From the NCBI RefSeq assembly GCF_004212215.1, contig NZ_QVFV01000001.1:1250814-1314813 (forward strand): a stretch of 64,000 nucleotides of DNA, given 5' to 3'. Origin of the DNA: Leptolyngbya iicbica LK (GTDB lineage: Bacteria > Cyanobacteriota > Cyanobacteriia > Phormidesmidales > Phormidesmidaceae). The notes beneath the pieces were generated by a model that worked only from the letters and a program-made list of their open reading frames with translations, ran no database searches and was not told where the DNA came from. Shown in pieces: positions 49,753-63,632 of the stretch. The stretch's first letter is position 1; every line of letters begins with the position of its first letter. The translations under genes and the position numbers were made by a program.

Positions 49753-51441
49753 TTAGCTACCTCTGCTAATTTGCCACATCAAGAATTGTTGAGTCGGTTG
49801 AATCGCGACGCCCTCGATACCGTCATGGGCAAAGACGTAGTCTTTATTTTGCCAAAGCGGAATGTAAGGCACGTCTGCTTGTAACAGCGCTTGAATGTCT
49901 TTGATGATGGCCTTACGAGCCTCCGGATCTTGCTCCGACTGTTGGGCACTTACCAATTCATTCGCCCGCTCACTGTAGTAAAACGAGCCGTTGCCCTGGC
50001 TCGCCCCTTCTTCGCAGAGGGTGGCTGCCGAGCCTTTTTCACAGCTCAAAAAGGGCTGCACAAAGGTATCGACGTCATAGTAGTCGGGATACCAATTCGC
50101 TAAGACAGAGGGATACACACCTTTGTCAACGTTGCCCCAAAGAGTGGCGCTTTCCGCAGTTTGCACGGTCACCGTGACCAACCCTGGCAAGCCCGTCTCA
50201 AAGGATTCTTTCAGCGTGTTGGCGACGACGCTGCGAGTGGTGGAAGCGGAGGGATACCAAATTTCGAAGTTGAACGGGTTCTCTTCTGAAAAGCCGGCTT
50301 CCCGCAAAAGTTGTTCGGCAAGCTCAAAATCACCATCGCCATAGGCTTCTTGCAGCACGGGTTCGTAAACATCAAAACTGGTGGGAATCAGGCTATAGAG
50401 CGGTTCGGCTTGCCCTTGAAACACGCGCTCATTCACCAGATTGCGATCGATCATGGCGGCGATCGCCTGTCGCACCCGCACATCATCCAGCGGCGCAATT
50501 TTCTGGTTCAGGCTCATGTAGTTGACCACGGTGGTGCCCGCTTCAATCACCTGCCAATTGCCTTCATCCGCCGTGCGCTCCAGATCGGCAATCTGTTCCG
50601 GATCGAGGGTTTGGTAAGCGACATCAATGCCGCCAGTCTTAAAGGTGTTGTAGAGGTTCGCCGGACTACTGAAAATCTGAATGTCGATACCGCCGTTGGC
50701 GGGCTTTTCACCCCAATAGTCTTCGTTTACATCCAGCTTGATGGAGTCGCTATTAAAAGCCGCCAGTTTGTACGGACCCGTGCCGATAAAGCTGTCGGGA
50801 ATAAAGCTGCCCTCCGCGATTTCATAGGACTCCGAGGGCACAGGAGTCACTCCCCAGAAGGTGAGCAGGGCAGTAAAAGCCGCGAAGGGGGAGTTGAGGG
50901 TGATGGTGATTTCATAGTCGCCAGTGGCTTCGACTGACGCAATGCGATCGGCTAACAGAAAGGCGGGTCGTCCCCCGTTTTGCATGAAACGCTCTAGCGA
51001 AAAGACCATGGCCTCAGCGTCGAACGGGGTGCCATCGTGGAAGACCACATCTTCCCGCAGGGGAATGACGTAGGTCAGACCGTCTTCGCTGATGGTGGGC
51101 ATTTCGGCTGCTAGCTGGGGAATGAGTTCCGTGCTGCCGGGTTCGTAAGCGTAGAGCTGATCCCCCAGGTTGTGCAGCAAAATGCCGGGGAAAATCTCGT
51201 AGGAATCAGCGGGGTCCAGGGTGCGCACCGTCAGCGTGGTGCCAATGGAGATGCGATCGCTCCCCGCTCCGTCAGCCGACTCAGCCGGGGTCTCGGTCTC
51301 AGTCGTGGGACTGCTAGTGCAAGCCACCACAAAGGCAAAACAGACGCTCAGCAACAGGCTAAATCGGCCCAGCGATCGCCACTGTCGCCGCGACCAAGCG
51401 CGACCCAGTTGTCGCCAACGAGACTGAATCAAAGACACCAT
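49753..51441 (-). CDS. Family-5 ABC substrate-binding lipoprotein (peptide/nickel type)
   Basis: A 562-aa extracytoplasmic solute-binding protein. The signal (residues 1-40) ends in a lipobox-like FVVAC, with the Cys to be lipidated, followed by a Thr/Glu-rich linker. The mature part has the family-5 pattern ISIGTTLTVRTLDPADSYE, LREDVVFHDGTPFDAEAMVFSLERFM, IGTGPYKL and RQAIAAMIDRNLVN. It captures oligopeptides or related ligands for a DppBC-type permease. No transporter genes are adjacent; the DppB-like permease at 14772-15797 is a possible partner. Confidence 0.92.
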   Translation of the reverse strand: MVSLIQSRWRQLGRAWSRRQWRSLGRFSLLLSVCFAFVVACTSSPTTETETPAESADGAGSDRISIGTTLTVRTLDPADSYEIFPGILLHNLGDQLYAYEPGSTELIPQLAAEMPTISEDGLTYVIPLREDVVFHDGTPFDAEAMVFSLERFMQNGGRPAFLLADRIASVEATGDYEITITLNSPFAAFTALLTFWGVTPVPSESYEIAEGSFIPDSFIGTGPYKLAAFNSDSIKLDVNEDYWGEKPANGGIDIQIFSSPANLYNTFKTGGIDVAYQTLDPEQIADLERTADEGNWQVIEAGTTVVNYMSLNQKIAPLDDVRVRQAIAAMIDRNLVNERVFQGQAEPLYSLIPTSFDVYEPVLQEAYGDGDFELAEQLLREAGFSEENPFNFEIWYPSASTTRSVVANTLKESFETGLPGLVTVTVQTAESATLWGNVDKGVYPSVLANWYPDYYDVDTFVQPFLSCEKGSAATLCEEGASQGNGSFYYSERANELVSAQQSEQDPEARKAIIKDIQALLQADVPYIPLWQNKDYVFAHDGIEGVAIQPTQQFLMWQISRGS

Positions 51442-51516
51442 AGGTCAAACCCCAACCGCTAGAGAATCCAAATGAGCTTTATTAACCCTTGTCTTGCAAC
51501 CCCTGTCAATCAGACC

Positions 51517-51999
51517 TCATACCGCCGACGGTTCGGCGGATGTGCCGTCATCATCTGGGGTAAAAAAGCGCTGGGTAATCGCCGCCGTGAAAAAGTGAAT
51601 TAACAAACCAAATGGGCCAGCAAACAGGCAAAAAGCCAGGGAATGACGGGTGAAAATACCGTTTTCTTGCCCTTGCAGGTAAATCCACCGTCCCACAAAC
51701 AAATCCATCACCAAAAAATGCACCCACCCCAGGGCCATCACATGACTGTTGGCAAACATGCCCGCCAGACCAGTAAGTTCCAATTGGGGATCGGAAAACG
51801 CTTCGAGAATGCCACCGTCGAGCGTGACGAACAGATAGACGTAAAGACTCGCCAATGCCGCAAACGGAATGTAGGACTGCATCAGGCGGCGCGTTACCGA
51901 CCAGTTAGGCAGCAACACCATCAGCGCCCAAAATGGCAACACAAACAGATTGGCTACTTGAAAAATATTTTCGAGGTCAGTCGCAGAGGGAATCAGCAT
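51517..51999 (-). CDS. ABA4-like (DUF4281) membrane protein
   Basis: A 160-aa membrane protein with about four transmembrane helices. The motif NSHVMALGWVHFLVMDLFVGRWIY in the middle is the hallmark of the ABA4/DUF4281 family, in which the plant member is needed for neoxanthin synthesis; given here as two short parts, MALGWVHFLV and MDLFVGRWIY. The function of cyanobacterial members is unsettled. It lies between the ABC binding protein and era on the same strand, without a tight operon. Confidence 0.88.
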   Translation of the reverse strand: MLIPSATDLENIFQVANLFVLPFWALMVLLPNWSVTRRLMQSYIPFAALASLYVYLFVTLDGGILEAFSDPQLELTGLAGMFANSHVMALGWVHFLVMDLFVGRWIYLQGQENGIFTRHSLAFCLFAGPFGLLIHFFTAAITQRFFTPDDDGTSAEPSAV

Positions 52000-52128
52000 A
52001 GCGATCGCGCATCAATTACGTCTCCCACTGTAGAAAACTTCTCTGGCGATGGGGAGAAATCGTCTCACCTTGGGGTCTTGGGCACCCGCGCTGCAGCCCC
52101 CCTGCTCCCCAGCCCCTCTGGCCTGCAA

Positions 52129-53067
52129 CTACTCTTCTCGCTGATAGCCCAGCTCTGCCAGGCGCGATCGCGACTGTCGCCACTTGGGTTGCACCTTGAC
52201 GAAAATTTCCAGGTACACCTTGCCCATGATGACTTTCTGCATCTGCTCACGGGCTCCGGAGCCGATCGCTTTCATCATGCTGCCTTTTTTGCCGATGAGA
52301 ATGCCCTTTTGCGAATCCCGCTCAACGTGGACGGTGGCGAGAATGCGCGTGATTTTTTCGTCTTCCTCAACGCGATCGATGGCAACTGCGACGGAGTGGG
52401 GCACCTCTTCGCGGGTGTGATACAACACCTGTTCGCGAATCAGCTCACCCATAATGAACCGTTCCGGCTGGTCGGTGACTAAATCAGGAGGATAGTAGTA
52501 GGGGCCAGGCTCCAACGCTTGAATGAGTCGGGTCTGTAAGTCAGAGACCTGATCTCCAGTAACGGCAGAAAATTCCAGCAGCGGCCAGCCATGTTCATCG
52601 GCGATCGCTTGATAGCTGCTCACAATCGCCTCGGCATCATCGGTGGAGCGCAGGTCAATTTTGTTCATCCCCAAGTAAACGGGGGTCTCCTGCTGGGTGA
52701 GCAGTTCGGCAATGAAGCGATCGCCCCGCCCCGCTGGCACCGAACCATCCACCACAAAGAGGACCAGATCGACGGAAGCGATCGCCATCCGCGCATTATG
52801 CACCAGCACTTTGCCGAGTTCGTGGTGGGGTTTATGAATCCCCGGCGTGTCGACAAAGATGATTTGGGCCTGCTCCGTCGTCAAGATGCCCCGCAGGCGA
52901 TTGCGGGTCGTTTGGGCCACGGGCGACGTAATCGCCACCTTTTGACCGATCAAATAGTTCATCAAGGTCGATTTGCCCACATTGGGGCGACCGACGATGC
53001 CCACAAAGCCAGAGCGAAAATCCGCCGGAGCGGCAGGAATCGCCGAAAAAGCCAGACTATCCACCAT
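52129..53067 (-). CDS. era: GTPase Era
   Basis: A 312-aa GTPase that binds 16S rRNA and assists 30S maturation. G1 is VGRPNVGKST, G2 TTRNRLRG, G3 VDTPGIHKPHH and G4 NKIDL. The C-terminal KH domain contains VERDSQKGILIGKKGSMMKAIG and closes EIFVKVQPKWRQSRSRLAELGY; both are typical of Era. It follows yjbQ on the same strand with a 4-bp gap, so they are probably cotranscribed. A C/T-rich tract with the 13-bp unit shared with 5518-5641 lies just past the stop. Confidence 0.97.
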   Translation of the reverse strand: MVDSLAFSAIPAAPADFRSGFVGIVGRPNVGKSTLMNYLIGQKVAITSPVAQTTRNRLRGILTTEQAQIIFVDTPGIHKPHHELGKVLVHNARMAIASVDLVLFVVDGSVPAGRGDRFIAELLTQQETPVYLGMNKIDLRSTDDAEAIVSSYQAIADEHGWPLLEFSAVTGDQVSDLQTRLIQALEPGPYYYPPDLVTDQPERFIMGELIREQVLYHTREEVPHSVAVAIDRVEEDEKITRILATVHVERDSQKGILIGKKGSMMKAIGSGAREQMQKVIMGKVYLEIFVKVQPKWRQSRSRLAELGYQREE

Positions 53068-53071
53068 GGGC

Positions 53072-53506
53072 TTAGCTCCCCATCAGGTGAACGACGACTT
53101 CGCGATGATGGCCGCGATCGCGATGCTCCCACAAATAAATCCCTTGCCAGGTGCCCAGGGCCAAACGACCATTCACGATGGGAATCGTCTCCGACGTGCT
53201 GGTCAACACCGACCGAATGTGAGCGGGCATGTCATCCGGCCCCTCGGCGCTGTGAACATAGTGGTAGCCATCGGGTACAAGCTTGGCGAGAAAATTTTCC
53301 AGATCGACCAGCACATCCGGATCGGCATTTTCTTGAATGATGAGGCTGGCCGAGGTGTGGCGAATGAAGACCGTACAAAGACCGTACTGAATGCCTGACT
53401 CGCTAACGACGCCCTGCACTTGCTGAGTAAAGCGCTGTAACGATTTTCCCCGAGTCGAAAGATCGAGTACCTTTTGATAGTGGTGCGTGATCGCAGTGGC
53501 AGGCAT
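53072..53506 (-). CDS. YjbQ / UPF0047 family protein
   Basis: A 144-aa protein from ATG 53506 (ATG 53542 adds 12 residues with a Cys-rich start that does not fit the family). It has the YjbQ signatures HTSASLIIQENADPDVLVDL, MPAHIRSVLTSTSETIPI and LGTWQGIYLWEHRDRGHHREVVVH, with conserved His and Asp of a small cupin-like fold; some members have secondary thiamine-phosphate synthase activity in vivo. The physiological role is unclear. Operon with era (4-bp gap). Confidence 0.92.
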   Translation of the reverse strand: MPATAITHHYQKVLDLSTRGKSLQRFTQQVQGVVSESGIQYGLCTVFIRHTSASLIIQENADPDVLVDLENFLAKLVPDGYHYVHSAEGPDDMPAHIRSVLTSTSETIPIVNGRLALGTWQGIYLWEHRDRGHHREVVVHLMGS

Positions 53507-53747
53507 ATCGCTTGATAAATGTGAACAGCAGCAATGAGACATTCATGTTAACTGACAAGATGGAGCGATCGCGCGAGTCAGATCCCTAAAGCGATCGTCG
53601 CCGCCCAGCGGCAGTGGCTGGCTAGCAGCACCGTGCCTTTCCTCATCAGTTGATGAAAAACTTAATCTTGCTTGGGCAGACTAGAAATTATCGCCCCAGG
53701 CTGCCTTAACCAATGGCGAAAATCTTCTAATCAGCGGCAATATCCCT

Positions 53748-54845
53748 GTGCCTCAATCTCTATCAGTTCCTGATTTATCGTTGTTTCACGCTTCGACGCA
53801 AATGCCGCAACCCGCATCGGTGCGGCGGTTGGCTCACGGCGTGCAGGCTTGGAATGCGTGGCGATCGCACACGGCTCAGACAGCGATCGCCGACGCCACG
53901 CCAGAGCGGATCAATCTACGCGAAGCCTCCCTGAAAAAAGCCCAACTGCAAAACATTAACTTTTCCACAGTTGACTGCTGCATGGCGGATTTGCGTCAGG
54001 CGGATTTAAGTCACGCCGATCTGCGCGAAACGCTCTTTTACACTGCCAATCTGAGCTATGCCAATCTCAGCTATGCCAACCTCAGCGGCGCTGATCTGCG
54101 CGAAGCCTCGCTACACGATGCCACGCTCCGGGCCGCCACGCTCAATTCGGCCAACCTGACCCATGCCGACCTGACCCGCAGCATATTGCGCGAAGCTCAA
54201 TTGCGGCACGCCGACTTGCGCCACGCTTCCCTCAACCAAGCCGATGCCTGTATGGTGCAATTTTCAGAGGCGGATCTGTCCTGGGCTGACCTCAGCAGCG
54301 CCGCCCTTTACACCGCCGATCTCAGTCGCTGTAACTTATCCAGCGCCACCCTTAATCAGGCTGACTTGCGCGAGGCGAACTTTGCCATGGCCACGTTACA
54401 AGACGCCCTCATGCACGAAGTTGATCTAAGTGCAGCCATTTGCAGCGCTGCCAACATGATTGGGGTCGCTCTGCACGGGGCCAATCTCACCATCGCCAAC
54501 CTCAGCCTGACCAATCTCTGTATGGCGAATCTCAGTCGGGCTTGCTTAGAGGGCACGACTCTGATCGGGGCCAATCTGATTGGGGCCAATTTGCACCAGG
54601 CCAAGCTGACCCGAGCCAATTGCGAAAATGCCGATTTGCGTGAAGCCATCATGCGCAAGGCCGATCTACAGGGAGCCAACTTTCGGTTTGCGGACTTGAA
54701 GATGGCGAACTTATCGGAGACTAACTTGCAGGGGGCCAACCTGACCGGCGCTGACTTATCCCAAGCGAATGTCTGGAAAGCCAATCTGAAAGACGCTTGT
54801 TTAATTGATGCAGTGATGCCTGATGGCAATCTGTATGCGCCCTGA
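53748..54845 (+). CDS. Pentapeptide-repeat protein
   Basis: A 365-aa protein starting at GTG 53748 (ATG 53802 is the alternative). From about residue 55 it consists almost wholly of A(D/N)LxX pentapeptides ([36 protein letters not shown]), roughly 55-60 in number. Such runs fold as a right-handed quadrilateral beta-helix, which in some proteins mimics DNA or binds partners. No signal or membrane span and no other domain. The short N-terminal part is unique. Function unknown. Confidence 0.92.
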   Translation: MPQSLSVPDLSLFHASTQMPQPASVRRLAHGVQAWNAWRSHTAQTAIADATPERINLREASLKKAQLQNINFSTVDCCMADLRQADLSHADLRETLFYTANLSYANLSYANLSGADLREASLHDATLRAATLNSANLTHADLTRSILREAQLRHADLRHASLNQADACMVQFSEADLSWADLSSAALYTADLSRCNLSSATLNQADLREANFAMATLQDALMHEVDLSAAICSAANMIGVALHGANLTIANLSLTNLCMANLSRACLEGTTLIGANLIGANLHQAKLTRANCENADLREAIMRKADLQGANFRFADLKMANLSETNLQGANLTGADLSQANVWKANLKDACLIDAVMPDGNLYAP

Positions 54846-55190
54846 TCGACAGGTTTCGGACGCCCGGACTGACGCAAAAACCCGAAGCGAGGATGTTTGC
54901 GCTGGGTTCTGGGAACATTTCAGCCCAATTTTGTGTACATTCAATCCGACTGTGTGCATATTTAAGTTAGTGATCAAGCACTTGCGTGCTGCATCTGTTT
55001 AGCGTCATCACTTATGCACCGCTGTCAGAACAGAACTTAGGCCCCCATCCCTCGCGATTTTCCTCACTCTGAGGCATGGGAACCAGACTCTTTTCTACCA
55101 AGCTGGGGCAGGAGAATGAGTAAGCACCGAAGCTGGCGCTAAATGTAAACTGCGTGCTTGGTCGGCGAATTGTTTTCGGTAAAGCTGCCT
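54846..55190. other. Intergenic region between the pentapeptide and AAA_35-GGDEF genes
   Basis: 345 bp without a credible gene. The stretch about 55030-55135 has the look of a dispersed non-coding repeat seen in such genomes (impression only). The promoter of the downstream AAA_35 pair must lie here but I cannot place it. Confidence 0.4.
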
Positions 55191-56798
55191 GTGCATCCAC
55201 CCCCTGCTACTTTTCTAGAAACTGGACCCACGGGGCCATTAAGTCTTGATTCGGCCTTTTACATTGAGCGGCCCCCGGTCGAAACGTTTGCCTACGCCGC
55301 GATCGCTCGCCCTGGCAGCCTGCTGCGCATCAAAGCCCCTAAACAAATGGGCAAAAGCTCTTTATTGATGCGGGTGATTGAGCAGGCCCATCAGCAAGGC
55401 GCTAAAACCGGCAAGATTGACTTTTTGCAAGCTGAAAAAACCTGTTTCGCCAGCTTGGATACGTTGCTGCGCTGGTTTTGTCATTTAACCGCGCGGCAAT
55501 TGGGTATCGCACCAAACCTCGATGACTGGTGGGATGAAGAGATCGGCAGCAAAGTGAGCTGCACCCTCTATTTTGAAAACCATCTGCTGCGGCGACTAGA
55601 CACTCCGCTGGTGTTGGTAATTAATGAAATCAACCGGGTCTTTGAGCATGAAGAGGTCGCCGGTGACTTTCTTTCACTATTGCGGTTTTGGCATGAGCAA
55701 GGCCAGCGATCGCCCGTCTGGCAAAACTTGCGACTTGTCTTGGCCTACTGCACTGAAGTGTATGTGCCCCTCCAGTTAGAGCAATCGCCCTTTAACGTCG
55801 GGCAACAACTAAAGCTGCCCCCTTTTACCACCGCCCAAGTACAAGAGCTAGCGGCACGTTATCAAGTCCCACAGCAATTGGGGGAGGCGTACGTCCCCTT
55901 TATCGACGAGCTCATGTCACTGGTCGGTGGCCATCCGTATCTGACCCATGCGGTCCTGGCTCAAGTTCCCGACACAGCGGCTGATCCCCAGGATCTGCTC
56001 AATCAGGCCATGCAGCCCAGCGGCGTCTGGGGAGAGTATTTGCGTCGCGGTTATGCATCGGTGCGGCATCAACCCGATTTGATCGACACGCTACAGCAGT
56101 TAGTCAAAGCCCCCCATGGGCTCAAATTGCCGCTGCACCTGGCTTACCAGCTTGAGAATGTGGGCTTGGTCCATTACGACGGCGATCGCTATCGGTTGTC
56201 GTGTGAGCTGTTTAAGCGGTTTTTGGTCGCCGAGTTGGCAGGACCCGAGGCACCTGCGCCCATCCAATTACAACAAGAAAATCAACGGCTGAAACAACTG
56301 GCTCACACCGACGCCCTGACTCAAATTCCCAACCGGCTGGCGTTTGACATCCGGCTCCAGATTGCCTGGCAACGCATGAGCCAAACTCAGGAGCCCCTGA
56401 CCTTGATGATGTGCGACATTGATTATTTCAAAGCCTATAACGACAATTATGGGCATTTGGCCGGTGACCAATGTTTGCGACAGGTCGCCAGCATTTTGCA
56501 GGCTCAGATGGGCACTGCACCAGACTTTGTAGCCCGCTTTGGGGGCGAAGAGTTTGCCGTTATTTTGCCCCGCACTGATCTGCTCACTGCCGAAAAACGG
56601 GCTGAAACGCTGCGATCGCAAATCAGTCTGCAAACCGCCCAAGGCGAGATGCCACCCGTCACCATCAGTATTGGGGGCGCCGTGGCCTCCACCCCAACGA
56701 ATCAAAGCACTCGGCAGCTGATTGAAGCCGCCGATCGCGTCCTGTACGAGTCCAAACGCTTAGGGCGCGATCGCGTCACCATCATCTCGCTCCTGTAG
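55191..56798 (+). CDS. AAA_35-type ATPase fused to an active-looking GGDEF diguanylate cyclase
   Basis: 535 aa from GTG 55191 (a TTG at 55158 adds 11 residues). Residues about 15-355 form the AAA_35 (AAA-like) module: FYIERPPVE, Walker A APKQMGKSS near 50, and a Walker B LVINEINRVF near 140 in which the usual Asp is Asn. The linker is followed by a GGDEF domain (about 370-530): metal-binding MMCDIDYFKAYND, catalytic FGGEEFAVILP. There is no RxxD inhibitory site before GGEEF. It should make cyclic di-GMP under control of the AAA module. 12 bp before the next AAA_35 gene. Confidence 0.85.
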   Translation: MHPPPATFLETGPTGPLSLDSAFYIERPPVETFAYAAIARPGSLLRIKAPKQMGKSSLLMRVIEQAHQQGAKTGKIDFLQAEKTCFASLDTLLRWFCHLTARQLGIAPNLDDWWDEEIGSKVSCTLYFENHLLRRLDTPLVLVINEINRVFEHEEVAGDFLSLLRFWHEQGQRSPVWQNLRLVLAYCTEVYVPLQLEQSPFNVGQQLKLPPFTTAQVQELAARYQVPQQLGEAYVPFIDELMSLVGGHPYLTHAVLAQVPDTAADPQDLLNQAMQPSGVWGEYLRRGYASVRHQPDLIDTLQQLVKAPHGLKLPLHLAYQLENVGLVHYDGDRYRLSCELFKRFLVAELAGPEAPAPIQLQQENQRLKQLAHTDALTQIPNRLAFDIRLQIAWQRMSQTQEPLTLMMCDIDYFKAYNDNYGHLAGDQCLRQVASILQAQMGTAPDFVARFGGEEFAVILPRTDLLTAEKRAETLRSQISLQTAQGEMPPVTISIGGAVASTPTNQSTRQLIEAADRVLYESKRLGRDRVTIISLL

Positions 56799-56810
56799 TT
56801 TTCTGGGGGG

Positions 56811-59800
56811 ATGGCCATGGCCTCCTTTGTGACTCCGTTTACCGAATCACCGGAGATGCCCTATCAAGTGGGGGGCAGTTTGCGGCCCGCACTGCCAAGT
56901 TACGTCACCCGGCAGGCCGACACCCAGTTAACGACCGCCCTGCAGGCAGCGGAATTTTGTTATGTGCTCAACAGCCGCCAAATGGGCAAATCTTCGTTGC
57001 TGGTGCAAACCCTCCGCAAGTTAGAGCTCGCGGGCTGTCGGTGCGCCACGGTGGATATTACCAGCTTGGGCAGCCAACAGGTAACGGCCAGTCAGTGGTA
57101 TCGGGGCCTCGTGGCCGACCTGTGGCGGGGCCTTGGGCTCTTTAGTCAGGGACATTACAAAAAATGGTGGCAAGATCAGGGCGAACTGCCCCCGGTGCAA
57201 AAGCTCCAGCGATTTTTTGAGGAAGTGCTACTAGAGCAACATCCCGAAGACGAGTTTGTGATTTTGATCGACGAAATCGACAGCATTTTGGGACTGGAAT
57301 TTTCGCTGGATGATTTCTTTGCGCTGATTCGCTATTGTTACAACCAGCGGGCAGTCAATCCGGCCTACCGACGCCTCACATTTGGCATTTTTGGAGTGGC
57401 CACCCCCAGCGATTTGATTCGCGATCGCCAGCGCACCCCCTTCAACATTGGGCAGGCGATCGCGCTCAATGGTTTCCAACCGCATGAGTGTGAGCCCTTG
57501 CTGGTGGGCCTGCGCGACACGATCGCCCAAGCCCCCGTCGTATTGCAAGAGATTCTGTATTGGACGGGGGGACAACCATTTCTGACCCACAAGCTGTGCG
57601 CGCTGATTTGGCAACTCGCCCATGAGCAGGGCACCCCGATTTTGGTGTCAGCCGGTAAGGAAGCGGCCTGGGTTCAGCAGTTTGTCCGCGATCGCGTGTT
57701 GCATCAGTGGGAATCGCAGGACGAACCAGAGCATTTACGGACGATTCGCGATCGCTTGCTGCGACATCCTCACCGCACCGGTCGCCTATTGGGTCTGTAT
57801 CAGCAGATATTGCGACAGGGGCCAGTGCCGACCGACGACTCGGAGGAGGCGATCGAACTGCAACTGTCGGGTCTGGTGAAAAAAGCGGGCGATATCTTAC
57901 AGATCAAAAACCCGATTTATCAAGCGGTGTTTAACGAAAGTTGGACAGCGGATCACCTGGAACATTTGCGCCCTTATTCTCAGGCGTTGACGGCCTGGTT
58001 AGCGGCTGATCGCCAAGATGCCTCGCGACTGTTGCGGGGCCAAGCCTTGAGAGATGCCCAGCAGTGGGCCCATAGCAAACGTCTCAGCGATGAAGACTAC
58101 CAGTTTTTGGCCGAGTCGGCAGAGAGCGATCGCCGCGAAGTGCAAATGGCGTTAGAAGCTGACCGCAGTCAGGCGATCGCGGCCCAACTGCACCAGTCGC
58201 GGCGCAATATGCGGCTGCAACGGTGGCTATTGGGAGCCATTACAACGGGGTTCGTACTATCCACAGGGCTGGGGTTTGCGGCTTTTGTGGAGTCACAGCG
58301 GGCCAGCCAGAATGAACAAATTGCCCGCCAGAGCGAAATTAAAGCCTTGCTGGCGTCAGCCAGAGGCTGGTTTGACTCAAATCAGCGGCTGGATGCGCTG
58401 TTGCAGGCACTGCGGGCACAACGTCAACTTACTGCCCTTGCCCAGCCCAACGCCGAGTTAGCCCAGGACATTGAGGACACGCTGTACACCATCATCCTGG
58501 GCGTGAATGAACGCAATCGCCTGGCGGGACACACCGGCGAAGTGCGCGAGGTGGCTTACAGTCCCCAAGGCGATCGCATTGCATCGGCCAGTCTGGATGG
58601 CACGGTGAAGCTGTGGGCACCCGATGGCGCCTTGTTGCAAACCCTGGAGAGTGATGCCCAGGGCATCCGGGCGATCGCCTTTAGCCCCGATGGGCAATTA
58701 CTTGTAGCGGGCAGTGCCGGCACCCTTTACCTGTGGGATGTCGAAACTGGCGAGCAACGGGCAGCCATTATGGCCCACCAGGGGTTGATTACCAAGCTCG
58801 TCTTTAGTCCTGATGGCACCCAAGTCGCCTCAGGCAGCACGGACAAAACCATCAAACTGTGGAATCCAGACGATGGCACCCTCTTGCACACCCTGACCGG
58901 ACATCGGGCGATGGTACGCGGTCTTGCCTTTAGTCCTGATGGTCAGCGATTGGCCTCGGGCAGCGCTGATGCCACCATCAAACTGTGGAATCCAGACGAT
59001 GGCAGTCTCAGCCAAACGGTAACGGGCCATGCCGCGACCGTGACCGATGTGCAATTTTCGCCCGATGGTGGCCGCTTGGCCTCGGGTAGCACCGACAAAA
59101 CGCTCAAACTTTGGGATTTATCGGGGCAACTCCTCACCACCTTTGAAGGTCACCAAGCCCAAGTCACGAGTCTGGATTTTAGTCCCGACGGGCAGCAGCT
59201 CGCTTCCACTAGCGAAGATGATGAATTGCGGTTTTGGCCGCTCAATGGCGAGCCGGGGCGGGCTTATCCGGGCATGGTTGAGGTGGGGCGATCGCTGGAC
59301 TTTAGCCCAGATGGGCAGACCTTGGTGACGTCTGGCCGCATTGATGATCCGGCACCCATTGTGTGGCAGCTGGAATCGCCGCTCTACAGTGTTGTGAAAA
59401 CCCACGCAGCGGCCGTGATTGCGATCGCGGTCAGTCCAGACGGGCAAACGATCGCGTCGGCGGGCACTGATGGTCAGATTCAACTCTGGCAACCCGACGG
59501 CACATCGCTCAAGGTCTTTTCCGGGCATCGCGCCCCCATCATTTATCTCGCCTTCAGTCCCGATGGCAGCCAATTCGCTTCATCCAGCTTCGACGGCACC
59601 GTCCGCCTGTGGCAAGCCGACGGCACGCCCATTCGCACCATTACCGGCGACACCCGTCTCGGGGGGCTCATTGCCTTTCATCCCACCGCAGCAGAATTTG
59701 CCATCAGCGGCGACGACCAAGTTGTCCGCCGCTTTCAACTCGATGGCACTCAAATATCAGCAATTCCGACCCAAAGCCGACTCAACAGTAGTATCGCTTG

Positions 59801-60368
59801 GCAGCCTCAGGGCACCCAGTTAGCCATTGGCGATGGGGAACCCATTCGCTTAATTGCCATGGAGGAAGACAGCCCCATCCTTAACCTGTCAGGCCACATC
59901 GGCCCGTTAAATGACTTGGAGTTTCAAGCTGATGGACAAGTGCTAGCTTCTGCCAGTGACGATCGCACCGCACGCCTCTGGGATGCCACCACTGGCGAAA
60001 CGCTACAGGTCCTCACCGGCCACACCGATGTCGTTTGGGATGTCACTTTTGCCCCGGAGTCGTCCCTGACGGTGCTCAATGATTTGTATCTAGCCACTGG
60101 CAGCGCCGACAACACCATTAAATTGTGGGGCGCTGACGGCACGTTACACACCACCCTCGATCGCCATACGGCTAAAGTCCTGCGGCTTGCCTTTAGTCCC
60201 GACGGCCAGTACCTGTTTTCCGCCAGCAATGACAACACAGTCATCCGCTGGGATTTGCCCGCCATCATGACGCTTGACCCAGTCGATTATGCCTGTCGCT
60301 GGGTCGCCGATTACTTACAAACCAATGCTGGCCTAAGTGACGACGATCGGCAGCTCTGCGATCGCTAA
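56811..60368 (+). CDS. AAA_35-type ATPase with a membrane helix and C-terminal WD40 propellers
   Basis: 1185 aa from ATG 56811 behind a GGGGGG site, 12 bp after the AAA_35-GGDEF gene. Residues 15-380 are the AAA_35 module: YVTRQADTQL, Walker A LNSRQMGKSS (53-62) and an intact Walker B ILIDEID (151-157). A helical stretch leads to one transmembrane segment at about 469-490 (LLGAITTGFVLSTGLGFAAF). A helical linker follows, then about 14 WD40 repeats from 570 to 1165 (for example SPQGDRIASASLDGTVKLW). The topology puts the ATPase and the propellers on opposite sides of the membrane unless the hydrophobic segment does not span. Cytoplasmic sensing of its neighbour GGDEF protein is possible (inference). 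Confidence 0.88.
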   Translation: MAMASFVTPFTESPEMPYQVGGSLRPALPSYVTRQADTQLTTALQAAEFCYVLNSRQMGKSSLLVQTLRKLELAGCRCATVDITSLGSQQVTASQWYRGLVADLWRGLGLFSQGHYKKWWQDQGELPPVQKLQRFFEEVLLEQHPEDEFVILIDEIDSILGLEFSLDDFFALIRYCYNQRAVNPAYRRLTFGIFGVATPSDLIRDRQRTPFNIGQAIALNGFQPHECEPLLVGLRDTIAQAPVVLQEILYWTGGQPFLTHKLCALIWQLAHEQGTPILVSAGKEAAWVQQFVRDRVLHQWESQDEPEHLRTIRDRLLRHPHRTGRLLGLYQQILRQGPVPTDDSEEAIELQLSGLVKKAGDILQIKNPIYQAVFNESWTADHLEHLRPYSQALTAWLAADRQDASRLLRGQALRDAQQWAHSKRLSDEDYQFLAESAESDRREVQMALEADRSQAIAAQLHQSRRNMRLQRWLLGAITTGFVLSTGLGFAAFVESQRASQNEQIARQSEIKALLASARGWFDSNQRLDALLQALRAQRQLTALAQPNAELAQDIEDTLYTIILGVNERNRLAGHTGEVREVAYSPQGDRIASASLDGTVKLWAPDGALLQTLESDAQGIRAIAFSPDGQLLVAGSAGTLYLWDVETGEQRAAIMAHQGLITKLVFSPDGTQVASGSTDKTIKLWNPDDGTLLHTLTGHRAMVRGLAFSPDGQRLASGSADATIKLWNPDDGSLSQTVTGHAATVTDVQFSPDGGRLASGSTDKTLKLWDLSGQLLTTFEGHQAQVTSLDFSPDGQQLASTSEDDELRFWPLNGEPGRAYPGMVEVGRSLDFSPDGQTLVTSGRIDDPAPIVWQLESPLYSVVKTHAAAVIAIAVSPDGQTIASAGTDGQIQLWQPDGTSLKVFSGHRAPIIYLAFSPDGSQFASSSFDGTVRLWQADGTPIRTITGDTRLGGLIAFHPTAAEFAISGDDQVVRRFQLDGTQISAIPTQSRLNSSIAWQPQGTQLAIGDGEPIRLIAMEEDSPILNLSGHIGPLNDLEFQADGQVLASASDDRTARLWDATTGETLQVLTGHTDVVWDVTFAPESSLTVLNDLYLATGSADNTIKLWGADGTLHTTLDRHTAKVLRLAFSPDGQYLFSASNDNTVIRWDLPAIMTLDPVDYACRWVADYLQTNAGLSDDDRQLCDR

Positions 60369-60415
60369 CTTGATCGAGATGCGGCCACAAGTTGCTTGGC
60401 GATTACCCACGCCTG

Positions 60416-61021
60416 TCAAAAACACTCAAACCCAAAACGATTGGGCTCAGGCAGCTCTGCCCCTTTGGAAGCGCGACCCAGCAGATTGTTAATCAACACA
60501 CATTGCTTGGGGGCAATATCCGCCCGGTCCTCGATCGTGATGATGCTTTGAGTCTCGACATTGCCTTTGAAGTCAAAGGCAATAGAATGAACGCCACTCT
60601 CTCCCAGCGTCTGCGTATTCGCCTCATCCAGCCCAATTTTGGGAGACAAACGCTCCCAGGCAGCAATATTCTCAGCGGCGATCGCCGCTGAGTGAATCAC
60701 CCATTCCACCTGCCCATTCCGCTCGCGAATGCTGAATTGCCAGGGGCTGCGCTGGGCGATCGCTTGGGTCTGCGCTTGTTGAATGGCTTGATAAATCTCG
60801 TCTTGGGCAGCTTCTACTTCGCGCTTGGTCAAAAATTGGAGCCACGAGGGAGTCGCGATCGCCGCCAAAATTCCCACAATCACAACAATGACCAAGATTT
60901 CTAGCAGCGTAAAGCCAGCCTGACGATGACGAGCAGATCTCACCCCATTGAATTTCTGACTCTCCTTAACCAATTCGCTCTTAGGATGCCCAACCATTGG
61001 GACTAACGTTTGCGGGAACAT
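60416..61021 (-). CDS. Type IV pilin-like / GspH-type pseudopilin
   Basis: A 201-aa protein. After a 34-residue leader comes the prepilin cleavage motif QAGFTLLEI with Glu at +5, and a hydrophobic helix (LVIVVIVGILAAIATPSW). The C-terminal globular part resembles the GspH/FimT minor-pilin domain, with a Cys pair near the end (PKQCVLI and GFECF). The long leader is atypical but ATG 60997 would give a shorter one. It would be processed by PilD and added to pili or a pseudopilus. No other pil gene is near. Confidence 0.85.
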   Translation of the reverse strand: MFPQTLVPMVGHPKSELVKESQKFNGVRSARHRQAGFTLLEILVIVVIVGILAAIATPSWLQFLTKREVEAAQDEIYQAIQQAQTQAIAQRSPWQFSIRERNGQVEWVIHSAAIAAENIAAWERLSPKIGLDEANTQTLGESGVHSIAFDFKGNVETQSIITIEDRADIAPKQCVLINNLLGRASKGAELPEPNRFGFECF

Positions 61022-61264
61022 ACCATTTAATCGGGATCAGAGTTTTCACGGGGCACAAATCAGGCTAACTGTCGTCACATCAAAGGCAGTCACCAGCTGT
61101 CAGCAACCGTTGCACCGGAGATGGCATCGCCGTTGCCCTTGGAAGCAGTAAAGAGTCATGCACCGAGAGGAACGTTGCGACGAAGGTTGCCGCAAAACGA
61201 TAGGATAATGACGCTTAATCACAGTACATCAGCCTTCAATGTGGACGTGGAGTGTAGGGAAACA

Positions 61265-62029
61265 ATGCAACGACGACGGTTTGTACGGCAATTTGGCATG
61301 GGGTTCGCGACAGCACTCGGGTTAGGGCTGACTTCAACTTGGCGATCGGCCCAAGCACAAAGCTCTGGAGTGACGGTGCGCTCCCTCGGTCACACCAGCT
61401 TTTTGTTTGAGGGCAACGGTCGCCGCATTTTGACCAATCCCTTCCGTTCCATCGGCTGCACCGCAGGCTATCCCTCACCCGCCGTGGCATCTGACGTAGT
61501 TTTGATCAGCAGCCGCCTCTTTGATGAGGGGGGCTTGCTGGAAGGATTACCCGGCAACCCGCCGATTCTCTCCGAACAGGGCGAATATGAGTTACCGCCC
61601 ATCCGCATGAAGTCGGTAGAAGTAGACCACGATCGCGAAGGCGGACGGCGCTTCGGCTCTAACCTGATCTGGCGCTGGGAGCAAGGCGGTCTCACCTTTG
61701 TGCATATGGGCGGGGCGGCGGCTCCGGTTTCTGTCGAAGAGCAGATTCAGCTCGGTCGCCCGGATGTCATGCTCGTGCCCGTGGGCGGTGGCCCCAAAGC
61801 CTATGACGCCGAGGAAGCGGTGGCTGCGATTCGGGCCCTCAATCCCCGCATCGTCATTCCCACCCATTACCGCACCGCCGCCGCTGACGATGAAACCTGC
61901 GACATTGCTGGCCTCCAGCCATTTTTAGACCGGATGAGCGGCACGCCTACTCGTCAATCTGGTAGCACCGTCTCCCTCTCGACAGGCAGTTTGCCCAGCA
62001 GCGGCATGGTTATTCAAATCATGGGCTAA
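61265..62029 (+). CDS. Metallo-beta-lactamase-fold protein with lost HxHxDH motif and Tat signal
   Basis: 254 aa from ATG 61265, behind AGGGA; the in-frame start at 61121 would give 302 aa. It starts MQRRRFVRQFG with a hydrophobic stretch to about residue 29, a twin-arginine signal. The domain is UlaG-like (VRSLGHTSFLFEG near the start, VHMGGAA and IPTHYRTAA later). At the place of HxHxDH it reads ISSRLFDE (81-88), so the first three metal ligands are missing while two later His remain. A binding, non-hydrolytic role or a rewired site is likely. Confidence 0.75.
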   Translation: MQRRRFVRQFGMGFATALGLGLTSTWRSAQAQSSGVTVRSLGHTSFLFEGNGRRILTNPFRSIGCTAGYPSPAVASDVVLISSRLFDEGGLLEGLPGNPPILSEQGEYELPPIRMKSVEVDHDREGGRRFGSNLIWRWEQGGLTFVHMGGAAAPVSVEEQIQLGRPDVMLVPVGGGPKAYDAEEAVAAIRALNPRIVIPTHYRTAAADDETCDIAGLQPFLDRMSGTPTRQSGSTVSLSTGSLPSSGMVIQIMG

Positions 62030-62167
62030 GGCGTGAGCCATAGCGTCGGATCGTCGTGTGGGTGTGCTGAGCACAGACAAGGCGGATGGCAGACGCTATG
62101 GTGATTAATCAAAAGAGAATGATCTTGAGATTATCTTCCGGCGATCGCCGCCTGGTGTTGAGGGCAG

Positions 62168-62184
62168 TAAGGGCTTAGCCCTTA
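62168..62184. repeat. Perfect 17-bp hairpin repeat
   Basis: TAAGGGCT-T-AGCCCTTA at 62168-62184, 8-bp arms. It lies 32 bp before the second copy of the dispersed repeat. Confidence 0.7.
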
Positions 62185-62215
62185 AATCATCTCCCCAAGA
62201 CCACAAGTTTGGTAT

Positions 62216-62267
62216 CAGCGTTTGGCAGTGCCACACCCCAACCATCGAGGAGGCTATTTTCAAGCAC
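62216..62267. repeat. Dispersed repeat, copy 2
   Basis: Matches 9081-9132 at 43 of 52 positions. The centre TTTGGCAGTGCCACA forms a small hairpin. It lies 49 bp before the pepP start codon. Confidence 0.75.
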
Positions 62268-62315
62268 TGACCTAAATGGGCGATCGCGCCCTCTTGTAAA
62301 ACCTTGTCCACTCAG

Positions 62316-63632
62316 ATGTTCACTATGCAGTCGGTTTATCAGCAGCGTCGTCAAACCCTTATGTCGCGGATTGGTAGCGGCACCGCCATTTTTGCCAGTG
62401 CGCCGCTGGCAGTGATGCACAACGATGTTGAGCACAACTTTCGACAAGACAGCGATTTTTACTATCTCACGGGGTTTAATGAGCCCGGTGCCGTGGCCGT
62501 GTTTGCCCCACATCATGAAGAACATCGCTTTGTGCTGTTTGTGCGGCCCAAGGACAAAGACAAGGAAATTTGGTCAGGCCGCCGATTAGGTGTTGACGCC
62601 GCGAAGGAAGCGTTGGGGGCCGATGCGGTTTTTCCACTGAGCGAACTGGATGAGAAACTGCCCGAGTATTTGAAAGGGGGCGATCGCCTTTATTACCACT
62701 TCGGTCATGACGAAACCCTGAACACCAAAATTCTCCGGCATTGGCGGCGACTGCTGGCCAGCTACGTGAAGCGAGGCACCGGGCCAGTCGCCATTGAAGA
62801 CGCCAAACTCCTGCTGCAAAACCAGCGCCGGGTCAAAGGCCCAGAAGAAATTGAGTTGATGCGGCAGGCGATCGCCGTTTCCGTCAAAGCCCACAACTAT
62901 GCGCGCGAAATCGCCCAGCCCGGACGCTATGAATACGAAATTCAAGCGGAGATGGAGCACCTGTTCAAACTGGCGGGGGGCGATCCGGCCTATCCTTCCA
63001 TCGTGGCGTCGGGCGACAACGCCTGCATTTTGCACTATGTGGAAAACAACCGCCAGATGCAGGCGGGGGATCTGCTGCTGATTGATGCCGGGGGCTGCAT
63101 CGACTACTACAACGCCGACATTACGCGCACCTTTCCCGTCTCAGGCAAATTTAGCGACGAGCAGCGCATTCTCTATGAGTTGGTGCTGGAGGCTCAGTTA
63201 AAGGCGATCGCTGAAGTCAAACCCGGCAACCCATTCAACGCCTTCCACGATGCCGCCGTGCGCACCATTACCGAAGGCCTGGTGGAACTTGGCCTCCTCG
63301 TGGGCGACATCGACACCCTGATCGAAGAGAAAAAGCACAAAGCCTTTTTCATGCACGGCACGGGCCATTTCCTCGGGTTAGATGTCCACGATACGGGCGT
63401 TCTGCGGAATCCTGACAAAACCTGGAAACCCTTTGAAGTCGGCAATGTTGTCACGGTCGAACCCGGCATTTACGTCACCCCTGATTACGAGCCCGAGGAA
63501 GGGCAGCCCCAGGTAGACGATCGCTGGCGGGGCATCGGCATCCGCATCGAAGACGATGTGCTAGTGACGGACACGGGTTGCGAAGTCCTCACTGCCGGGG
63601 TGCCCAAATCTGTGGCCGACATGGAAAGCTGA
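62316..63632 (+). CDS. pepP: Xaa-Pro aminopeptidase (PepP/M24 family)
   Basis: A 438-aa M24 metallopeptidase from ATG 62316 (TTG 62304 and ATG 62325 are alternatives). An N-terminal aminopeptidase-P domain (about 1-180; MHNDVEHNFRQDSDFYYLTGF) is followed by the pita-bread domain. The metal ligands are Asp in LLIDAGG and YNADITRTFP, His in FMHGTGHFLGLDVHD, and Glu in VVTVEPGIY and GIGIRIEDDV. It removes the N-terminal residue from X-Pro peptides. Convergent with menD. Confidence 0.96.
   Translation: MFTMQSVYQQRRQTLMSRIGSGTAIFASAPLAVMHNDVEHNFRQDSDFYYLTGFNEPGAVAVFAPHHEEHRFVLFVRPKDKDKEIWSGRRLGVDAAKEALGADAVFPLSELDEKLPEYLKGGDRLYYHFGHDETLNTKILRHWRRLLASYVKRGTGPVAIEDAKLLLQNQRRVKGPEEIELMRQAIAVSVKAHNYAREIAQPGRYEYEIQAEMEHLFKLAGGDPAYPSIVASGDNACILHYVENNRQMQAGDLLLIDAGGCIDYYNADITRTFPVSGKFSDEQRILYELVLEAQLKAIAEVKPGNPFNAFHDAAVRTITEGLVELGLLVGDIDTLIEEKKHKAFFMHGTGHFLGLDVHDTGVLRNPDKTWKPFEVGNVVTVEPGIYVTPDYEPEEGQPQVDDRWRGIGIRIEDDVLVTDTGCEVLTAGVPKSVADMES

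Follow-up and report, generated by a model that had tools for sequence, protein, structure and literature searches.

To our knowledge, most of the NLR relatives described from prokaryotes are single proteins of the cytoplasm. In the STAND/NLR class, which includes CED-4, Apaf-1, NLRC4, the plant NLRs and the archaeal SSO1545 and PAB2304, a P-loop NTPase is joined to helical and winged-helix parts with an effector on one side, and Apaf-1 bears WD40 repeats on its receptor side. The DNA analysed here is a stretch of 64,000 nucleotides from Leptolyngbya iicbica LK (contig NZ_QVFV01000001.1, positions 1,250,814 to 1,314,813 of the forward strand), referred to as the window, in which two neighbouring genes on the plus strand each encode an AAA_35 module. 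Gene A (55158..56798, starting at TTG 55158 with an alternative GTG at 55191) encodes an AAA_35-GGDEF protein of 546 residues. Gene B (56811..60368, from its open reading frame and Pfam matches) encodes an AAA_35-WD40 protein of 1185 residues with a probable transmembrane helix between the two parts, and the open reading frames leave a gap of 12 bp (56799..56810) between the genes. Like the STAND/NLR proteins, A has the P-loop, helical and winged-helix parts with an effector on one side, and B carries WD40 repeats on the receptor side as Apaf-1 does. Unlike these proteins, however, the AAA_35 pair is divided between two genes whose NTPase modules differ, has a membrane helix ahead of the propeller, and combines an Asn in the Walker B motif of the effector half with a diguanylate cyclase as the effector.

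The nearest described arrangement is that of the two-gene nSTAND2 systems, which share the layout of two adjacent STAND genes and in which, as far as the accessible part of the source goes, the member with the eroded site bears a variable effector (PMC8195603). These systems differ in that their effectors are GT4 or HEPN domains, and the same part of the source describes no WD40 receptor (PMC8195603). Unlike the erosion in nSTAND2, the Walker B Asp is retained in 32 of the 47 GGDEF-free AAA_35 A copies. The VMAP/iSTAND systems, according to the accessible sections of PMC7159879, resemble A in their TIR, caspase-like, trypsin-like, cNMP cyclase and, rarely, GGDEF effectors; they resemble the pair in occurring in cyanobacteria and, for the iSTAND type, in having an inactive STAND component. 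They differ in containing MoxR and vWA genes, neither of which is found among the eight window neighbours scanned (49753-63632), and AAA_35 is not named in that paper. Diguanylate cyclases of the WspR/PleD type share with A a GGEEF domain and a helix leading into it. However, the input of A is a NOD-like NTPase rather than a receiver, PAS or GAF domain, and the RxxD site is absent in A of the window.

In the accessible text of PMC11119718, AAA_35 accompanies cyanobacterial sigma factors as an accessory domain, STAND, TIR and WD40 proteins are treated without an AAA_35 pair in the corresponding parts of PMC10907252 and PMC7517822, and a CHASE2-PAS-GGDEF cyclase of Leptolyngbya is described in that of PMC10581220. 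PMC7063779 mentions none of the terms looked for. No description of AAA_35 pairs was found in the main texts of an open-access literature library; supplements, preprints and papers behind subscriptions were outside its scope. In PADLOC-DB 2.0.0, A has no match and B matches only HEAT-ARM_XIII (177 bits) within the WD40 region, which places neither protein in a system of that database. No nSTAND family is among the Pfam matches listed for A or, over residues 1-563, for B, and the comparison with nSTAND2 is by description only.

The analysis points, with about an even chance of being correct, to the A-B pair being one copy of a cyanobacterial two-gene family that forms a split, membrane-anchored STAND/NLR-like receptor gating a diguanylate cyclase. 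Comparison of the distances among A modules with those among their partner B modules gave an r of 0.879 over 58 pairs, whereas the maximum of 5000 free shuffles was 0.361; the A-B gap lies within 100 bp in 38 of these 58 pairs. Since a common species history could yield such a value, B was also shuffled only within genomes. The r is then 0.755 (26 pairs from 10 genomes), compared with a mean of 0.351 and a maximum of 0.745 in 10000 shuffles. The results show that A and B coevolve, even when they are re-paired inside genomes. B and A are also encoded as a single polypeptide in nine loci, L187 and L234-L241, the latter being 8 of 15 further loci. The B-A fusions join the AAA_35 modules head to tail and lack WD40. 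All nine retain Asp in both halves, with DPVD (Pro for Glu) in the B half of L240. A class III cyclase lies between the B and A halves of L240, and L241 is apparently alike when the alignment is inspected by eye. The fusion alignment used was A4; A3, in which the B rows had slid onto the A half, was discarded. The coevolution, the B-A fusions and the adjacency of the genes argue that A and B work together. Thus, the proposal made from the sequence alone (hereafter the sequence-only reading) that the two proteins belong together holds, and it is further borne out by four A-B pairs in this genome.

These four pairs, together with one extra B, make up the nine AAA_35 matches above the cut-off in the window genome; a tenth match lies below it. 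The three sister A copies have ~100 to 115 residues ahead of AAA_35 and no GGDEF domain, and their Walker B motifs read DEVD, DEAD and KEFD. A helix-turn-helix (HTH) match in these copies is above the curated cut-off in L010 (GerE) and below it in L009 and L011. The distances from these copies to the B genes behind them are -4, 109 and 736 bp. The gap of 736 bp contains a transposase-like open reading frame, of REP or IS200 type by appearance (L011:5379-6053, plus strand). No firm assignment was obtained for the ~100-residue N-terminal domain of many A proteins, which gave weak matches only; we presume a likeness to the N-terminal HTH of VMAP.

The family was surveyed in 16 other genomes through A-type AAA_35 matches of 200 bits or more, to which the four of the window genome were added. 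The other genomes contain 54 such matches, distributed over 15 of them with none in G400. Once the broken or partial copies (L080 twice, L196, L207 and L208) and the fusion L187 had been set aside, 53 A copies remained as intact. B lies within 1.2 kb downstream of 27 of them and upstream of 4, one of which (L190) is doubtful, and does not adjoin the remaining 22. In the nearest relatives of the window A, namely L100 (81% identical), L101, the partial L104 and L105, B adjoins in all cases, and L100 keeps the GGEEF motif and the P-loop as well as the pair. Conserved pairs, as sought by the sequence-only reading, are found (27 of the 53 A copies, and in the relatives L100 and L101), but the pairing is not strict, as the 22 copies without an adjoining B show. 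The two-gene receptor-effector unit is real and probably functional, with a pairing that is frequent rather than strict across the family.

Sequence comparisons of the two NTPase modules showed that both clear the curated cut-off of AAA_35 (PF14516, 27 bits), A with 402.9 bits and B with 101.9 bits, which confirms two genes 12 bp apart with an AAA_35 module each; the AAA_35 and GGDEF scores are well beyond chance level. The module of A spans residues 24-356 (55227..56225), and the best stretch of B residues 25-264 (56883..57602), the scan of B covering its first 563 residues. The P-loop GKSSL is intact in both proteins, within APKQMGKSSL (55335..55364) in A and with GKSS at 56985..56996 in B. 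The Walker B motifs differ as had been noted: A reads NEIN (55623..55634, within VLVINEINRVFE), in which Asn replaces the Asp, and B has the intact DEID (57270..57281, within VILIDEIDSILG). The acidic Mg-binding residue typical of STAND proteins is thus present in B and replaced in A, and A is therefore labelled STAND-like with an altered Walker B rather than a standard active STAND protein. The GGDEF domain of A (residues 382-539, 56301..56774; Pfam 156.9 bits, also found by Foldseek) contains GGEEF at 56541..56555 along with MMCDIDYFK and YNDNYGHLAGD. At the position of the I-site upstream of GGEEF, A has TAPD instead of RxxD, so the domain is intact without an inhibitory site, as previously read. 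These motifs include the catalytic Asp and the guanine-binding Asn/Asp expected of a diguanylate cyclase.

The AlphaFold model of A (mean predicted local distance difference test score, pLDDT, 89.1; predicted template modelling score, pTM, 0.62; alignment of 38 rows) shows the elements in the order P-loop NTPase, helical part, winged helix, linker helix and GGDEF, with the first three making up the STAND-like AAA_35 module. In the model, the winged-helix part comprises residues 306-361 (56073..56240, from the secondary structure) and the linker helix from the winged helix to GGDEF residues 368-382 (56259..56303). A Foldseek search with this model gave the GGDEF structures of WspR, DgcB and PleD as the top matches. 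Because GGDEF matches swamped this search, we turned to the B-A fusion L234 (pLDDT 77.4, pTM 0.49) for the NTPase fold. The A half of L234 matches the archaeal ATPases 2qen (Z 20.8, root-mean-square deviation 4.5 over 304 residues) and 2fna (Z 19.5), which we take to belong to the STAND class, and then the plant NLR RPP1 (Z 17.6), CED-4 (17.2), Apaf-1 (16.1) and NLRC4 (15.4). The B half (residues 13-381) matches archaeal ORC2 with a Z of 17.3. When the A alignment was compared with the sequences of solved structures, the only matches were three RecA P-loops. The nucleotide-binding, helical and winged-helix parts of a STAND fold are thus seen both in the element order of the window A model and in the matches of the L234 A half at Z 15-21. 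By these models, the fold of A is STAND/NLR-like with a winged helix, a fold that alone proves no function.

The Asn of the window was compared across the family. The 72 non-redundant AAA_35-GGDEF proteins listed include those of 80 loci gathered by two patterns, one requiring Asn or Gln before the Glu, and these 80 loci were not used for a family-wide frequency of Asp or Asn. The Walker B residue of the 72 is Asn in 64, His in 3, and Glu, Gln, Ser, Lys and Thr in 1 each, with Asp in none. Given the bias of the patterns, the cleaner statement on the loss of Asp comes from 32 fusions found by whole-protein similarity, none of which keeps Asp. In these 32, the P-loop GK[ST] is present in 31 (L102 has GKGS) and the adjacent Glu of Walker B is kept in most. 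Among non-GGDEF A proteins, Asn is found in 35 of 77, a listed set partly gathered by the pattern favouring Asn. The 53 survey A copies have Asp in 32, Asn in 11, Lys, Ser and Glu in 3 each and His in 1. The survey loci contain 46 B proteins, of which 43 are readable, with Asp in 42 (that of L190 from another ATPase domain) and Glu in 1. In a FastTree phylogeny, in which several nodes of the Asn clade are weakly supported, relatives with and without the GGDEF fusion have the Asn form, and there are 8 state changes for Asp versus 19 for GGDEF. Since fused and unfused relatives share it, the Asn is an old trait of the GGDEF-bearing clade and not an accident of the window pair. The idea that it is a special trait of this pair therefore does not hold; the pattern suggests instead that ATP hydrolysis may be altered across the clade. 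In the same 72 fusions, an RxxD site is found in 16. Degenerate motifs such as TGKKF, EQTKF and ESTKF occur in L090, L094, L092, L097 and others, some of them adjoining B, and may point to ligand binding without synthesis.

The effector position of A is occupied by different modules in different copies. A Pfam scan (E up to 1e-4) showed CHAT in 7 of the 53 A proteins, GGDEF in 6, TIR in 5, protein kinase and LuxR-type HTH in 2 each, and a trypsin-like peptidase, a class III nucleotide cyclase, HTH_26 and an alpha/beta-hydrolase model set in one each. The 16 genomes were hand-picked and six were known beforehand to hold A-GGDEF, so the share of 6 in 53 is no population estimate. In other A proteins (9 and 10 proteins, a non-random selection), cyclase-TIR, CHAT-TIR, kinase-TIR and trypsin-TIR combinations precede AAA_35. 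The closest parallel to the window pair is L189 (5919-8216, minus strand), a CHAT-AAA_35-class III cyclase protein in which the cyclase takes the slot of GGDEF and B lies 29 bp downstream. We regard CHAT as caspase-like.

B comprises a single hydrophobic helix and a propeller behind its NTPase module. The helix, placed by hydropathy only at about residues 473-493 (58227..58289), is Arg-rich on its N side and probably crosses the membrane. It is followed by the WD40 region at about residues 565-1150 (58503..60260), which contains 11 WD40 stretches and no Cys. Of the Cys of B, six precede the helix, none falls within 264-1161, and two at 1162 and 1183 in the C-terminal segment (60294..60359) are the only ones after the helix. 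Analysis of 44 complete, non-redundant B proteins with WD40 and helix showed at least 2 Cys within the last 75 residues in 41, and exactly this C-terminal pair after the helix in 29; the median after the helix is 2 Cys. In 38 of the 44, the 15 residues preceding the helix contain more Lys and Arg than the 15 that follow it. In comparison, the three complete helix-free WD40 B proteins have 10, 12 and 13 Cys and lack the C-terminal pair; the helix-free rows L177 and L200 were excluded from this comparison because they are cut by locus ends. The Cys and charge patterns suggest that the WD40 part of B is located outside the cytoplasm, and they fit a propeller closed by a disulfide. Among the B proteins without WD40, L092:13126-15888, L144:8044-10866 and L182:5328-8063 have a common short C-terminal region with ends like AIEYLKQAES.

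Several observations weigh against a strict receptor-cyclase unit. B is found within 1.2 kb downstream of 24 of the 72 listed A-GGDEF proteins, with 44 lacking it and 4 near a contig end, and G172 has an A-GGDEF (L098, with a degenerate motif) but no B above the AAA_35 cut-off. The need of A for B that the sequence-only reading had considered possible is thus not general. The GG[DE]EF motif is complete in 47 of the 72 fusions and degenerate in 25, and degenerate domains beside an intact B (L090 and L094) indicate that the cyclase output is dispensable. GGDEF-free unfused Asn copies persist, 6 of 35 with GGDEF-like DNA downstream. The location of the propeller has only three helix-free WD40 controls, and the helix-free, locus-cut L200 has 6 Cys and retains the C-terminal pair. 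Furthermore, a WD40 match is absent in 12 of the 67 B proteins of at least 850 residues, and in the sister pair C7 of the window genome, B (L009:4300-7875, minus strand) has neither a WD40 match nor a helix. This B has eight Cys beyond its NTPase part and looks like a soluble B with a different C-terminus. The A-B arrangement in the L234 model was left unused as unreliable at a pTM of 0.49. Overall, a WD40 sensor is plausible and the link to cyclic di-GMP (c-di-GMP) is indicated by the domains, whereas a strict unit is not upheld.

The pairing counts could also mean that A-GGDEF works autonomously, as a diguanylate cyclase that senses ATP and is linked to B by descent and co-transfer only. The many solitary copies and G172 fit such a view, and the copies with the N-terminal domain are mostly solitary (B in 5 of 35, with 3 more at a contig end). 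However, the window-type copies without this domain have an adjoining B in 19 of 37, and neither the partner-specific coevolution inside genomes nor the natural B-A fusions would be expected from it, making an autonomous A rather improbable. A decaying pair, whose Asn would mark a pseudo-NTPase and whose GGDEF is being lost, is very improbable. The degenerate motifs, the broken copy L080 and the GGDEF remnants behind unfused Asn copies would agree with such decay, but most proteins across a broad clade retain the Asn-Glu and the P-loop, indicating constraint, and neither the window copy nor L100 has lost the GGEEF motif, the P-loop or the pair. A housekeeping c-di-GMP sensor, which would pass a surface or osmotic cue to motility or biofilm formation with the NOD-like module as a dimerisation switch and with no part in immunity or conflict, is a more serious candidate, although still an unlikely one. 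There are 43 GGDEF matches in the window genome but none to PilZ, so the cyclase of the window is one among many and GGDEF is an often-recruited ordinary output here; the organism's c-di-GMP receptors seem to be of kinds other than PilZ. The eight neighbours without MoxR or vWA and a pilin-like GspH gene behind the pair, present likewise in L100, are in line with a housekeeping role. In contrast, sister A proteins bear CHAT, TIR, trypsin-like, kinase and cyclase modules, and the cyclase and TIR parts of L059 match the Pycsar-cyclase and TIR models of PADLOC-DB. In the accessible parts of the sources, TIR, caspase-like, trypsin-like and cNMP-cyclase domains (PMC7159879) and kinases (PMC8195603) are named among the components of conflict systems.

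In the split-receptor reading, B would be the receptor, with the WD40 propeller outside the cytoplasm, one membrane helix, and inside it an AAA_35 NTPase whose Walker B is intact. A would be the soluble effector half, in which a helix connects a NOD-like AAA_35 module with a diguanylate cyclase that has GGEEF and no RxxD. A is predicted to bind ATP and probably hydrolyses it poorly because the Walker B Asp is fixed as Asn. We infer that a signal at the propeller would alter B, that B and A would pack through their NTPase modules, and that activation by oligomerisation would bring the GGDEF domains together as dimers to produce c-di-GMP. A bolder reading, which we hold only tentatively, is that AAA_35 pairs constitute a so far undescribed class of cyanobacterial receptors, apoptosome-like but split and transmembrane, with an outside WD40 part closed by a C-terminal disulfide, an Asn-held ATP-bound partner and c-di-GMP as an alarm. 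The active inside NTPase would then assemble the NOD-like partner, and in the GGDEF branch c-di-GMP would stand where sister systems have TIR, CHAT, protease or cNMP-cyclase effectors.

The eight neighbours of the pair encode a solute-binding protein, an ABA4-like protein, an Era-like GTPase, a UPF0047 protein, a pentapeptide-repeat protein, the GspH-type pilin (60416-61021, on the opposite strand; that of L100 was recognized by sequence), a metallo-beta-lactamase-fold protein and aminopeptidase P. Promoter and terminator scans showed no excess over shuffles. In other genomes, an ABC-transporter gene lies directly behind A in L077 and L078, and the same neighbour sits behind B in L079, as if B had been lost in the former two. 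Genes of ABC-type transporters, by appearance, recur on the same strand after A-GGDEF or A-B in L077, L078, L079, L081, L082, L085 and L094, and are possibly a target of these loci. The broken AAA_35-GGDEF copy of genome G099 lies in three pieces (L080:7544-9268, minus strand).

The breadth of the family, the coevolution, the resemblance of the fold to NLRs and a propeller that is probably extracytoplasmic raise the interest of the pair; the idea of the window Asn as the mark of a specially dead partner is weakened. The conserved Asn would open the role of hydrolysis-impaired STAND partners to study in a pair that occurs naturally and whose enzymatic output is easy to read. c-di-GMP is usually a lifestyle signal, and the split-receptor reading, if true, would tie it to NLR-like machinery. 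It would also show a surface signal relayed through NTPase modules to immunity-type enzymes, with a membrane receptor half and a swappable effector half.

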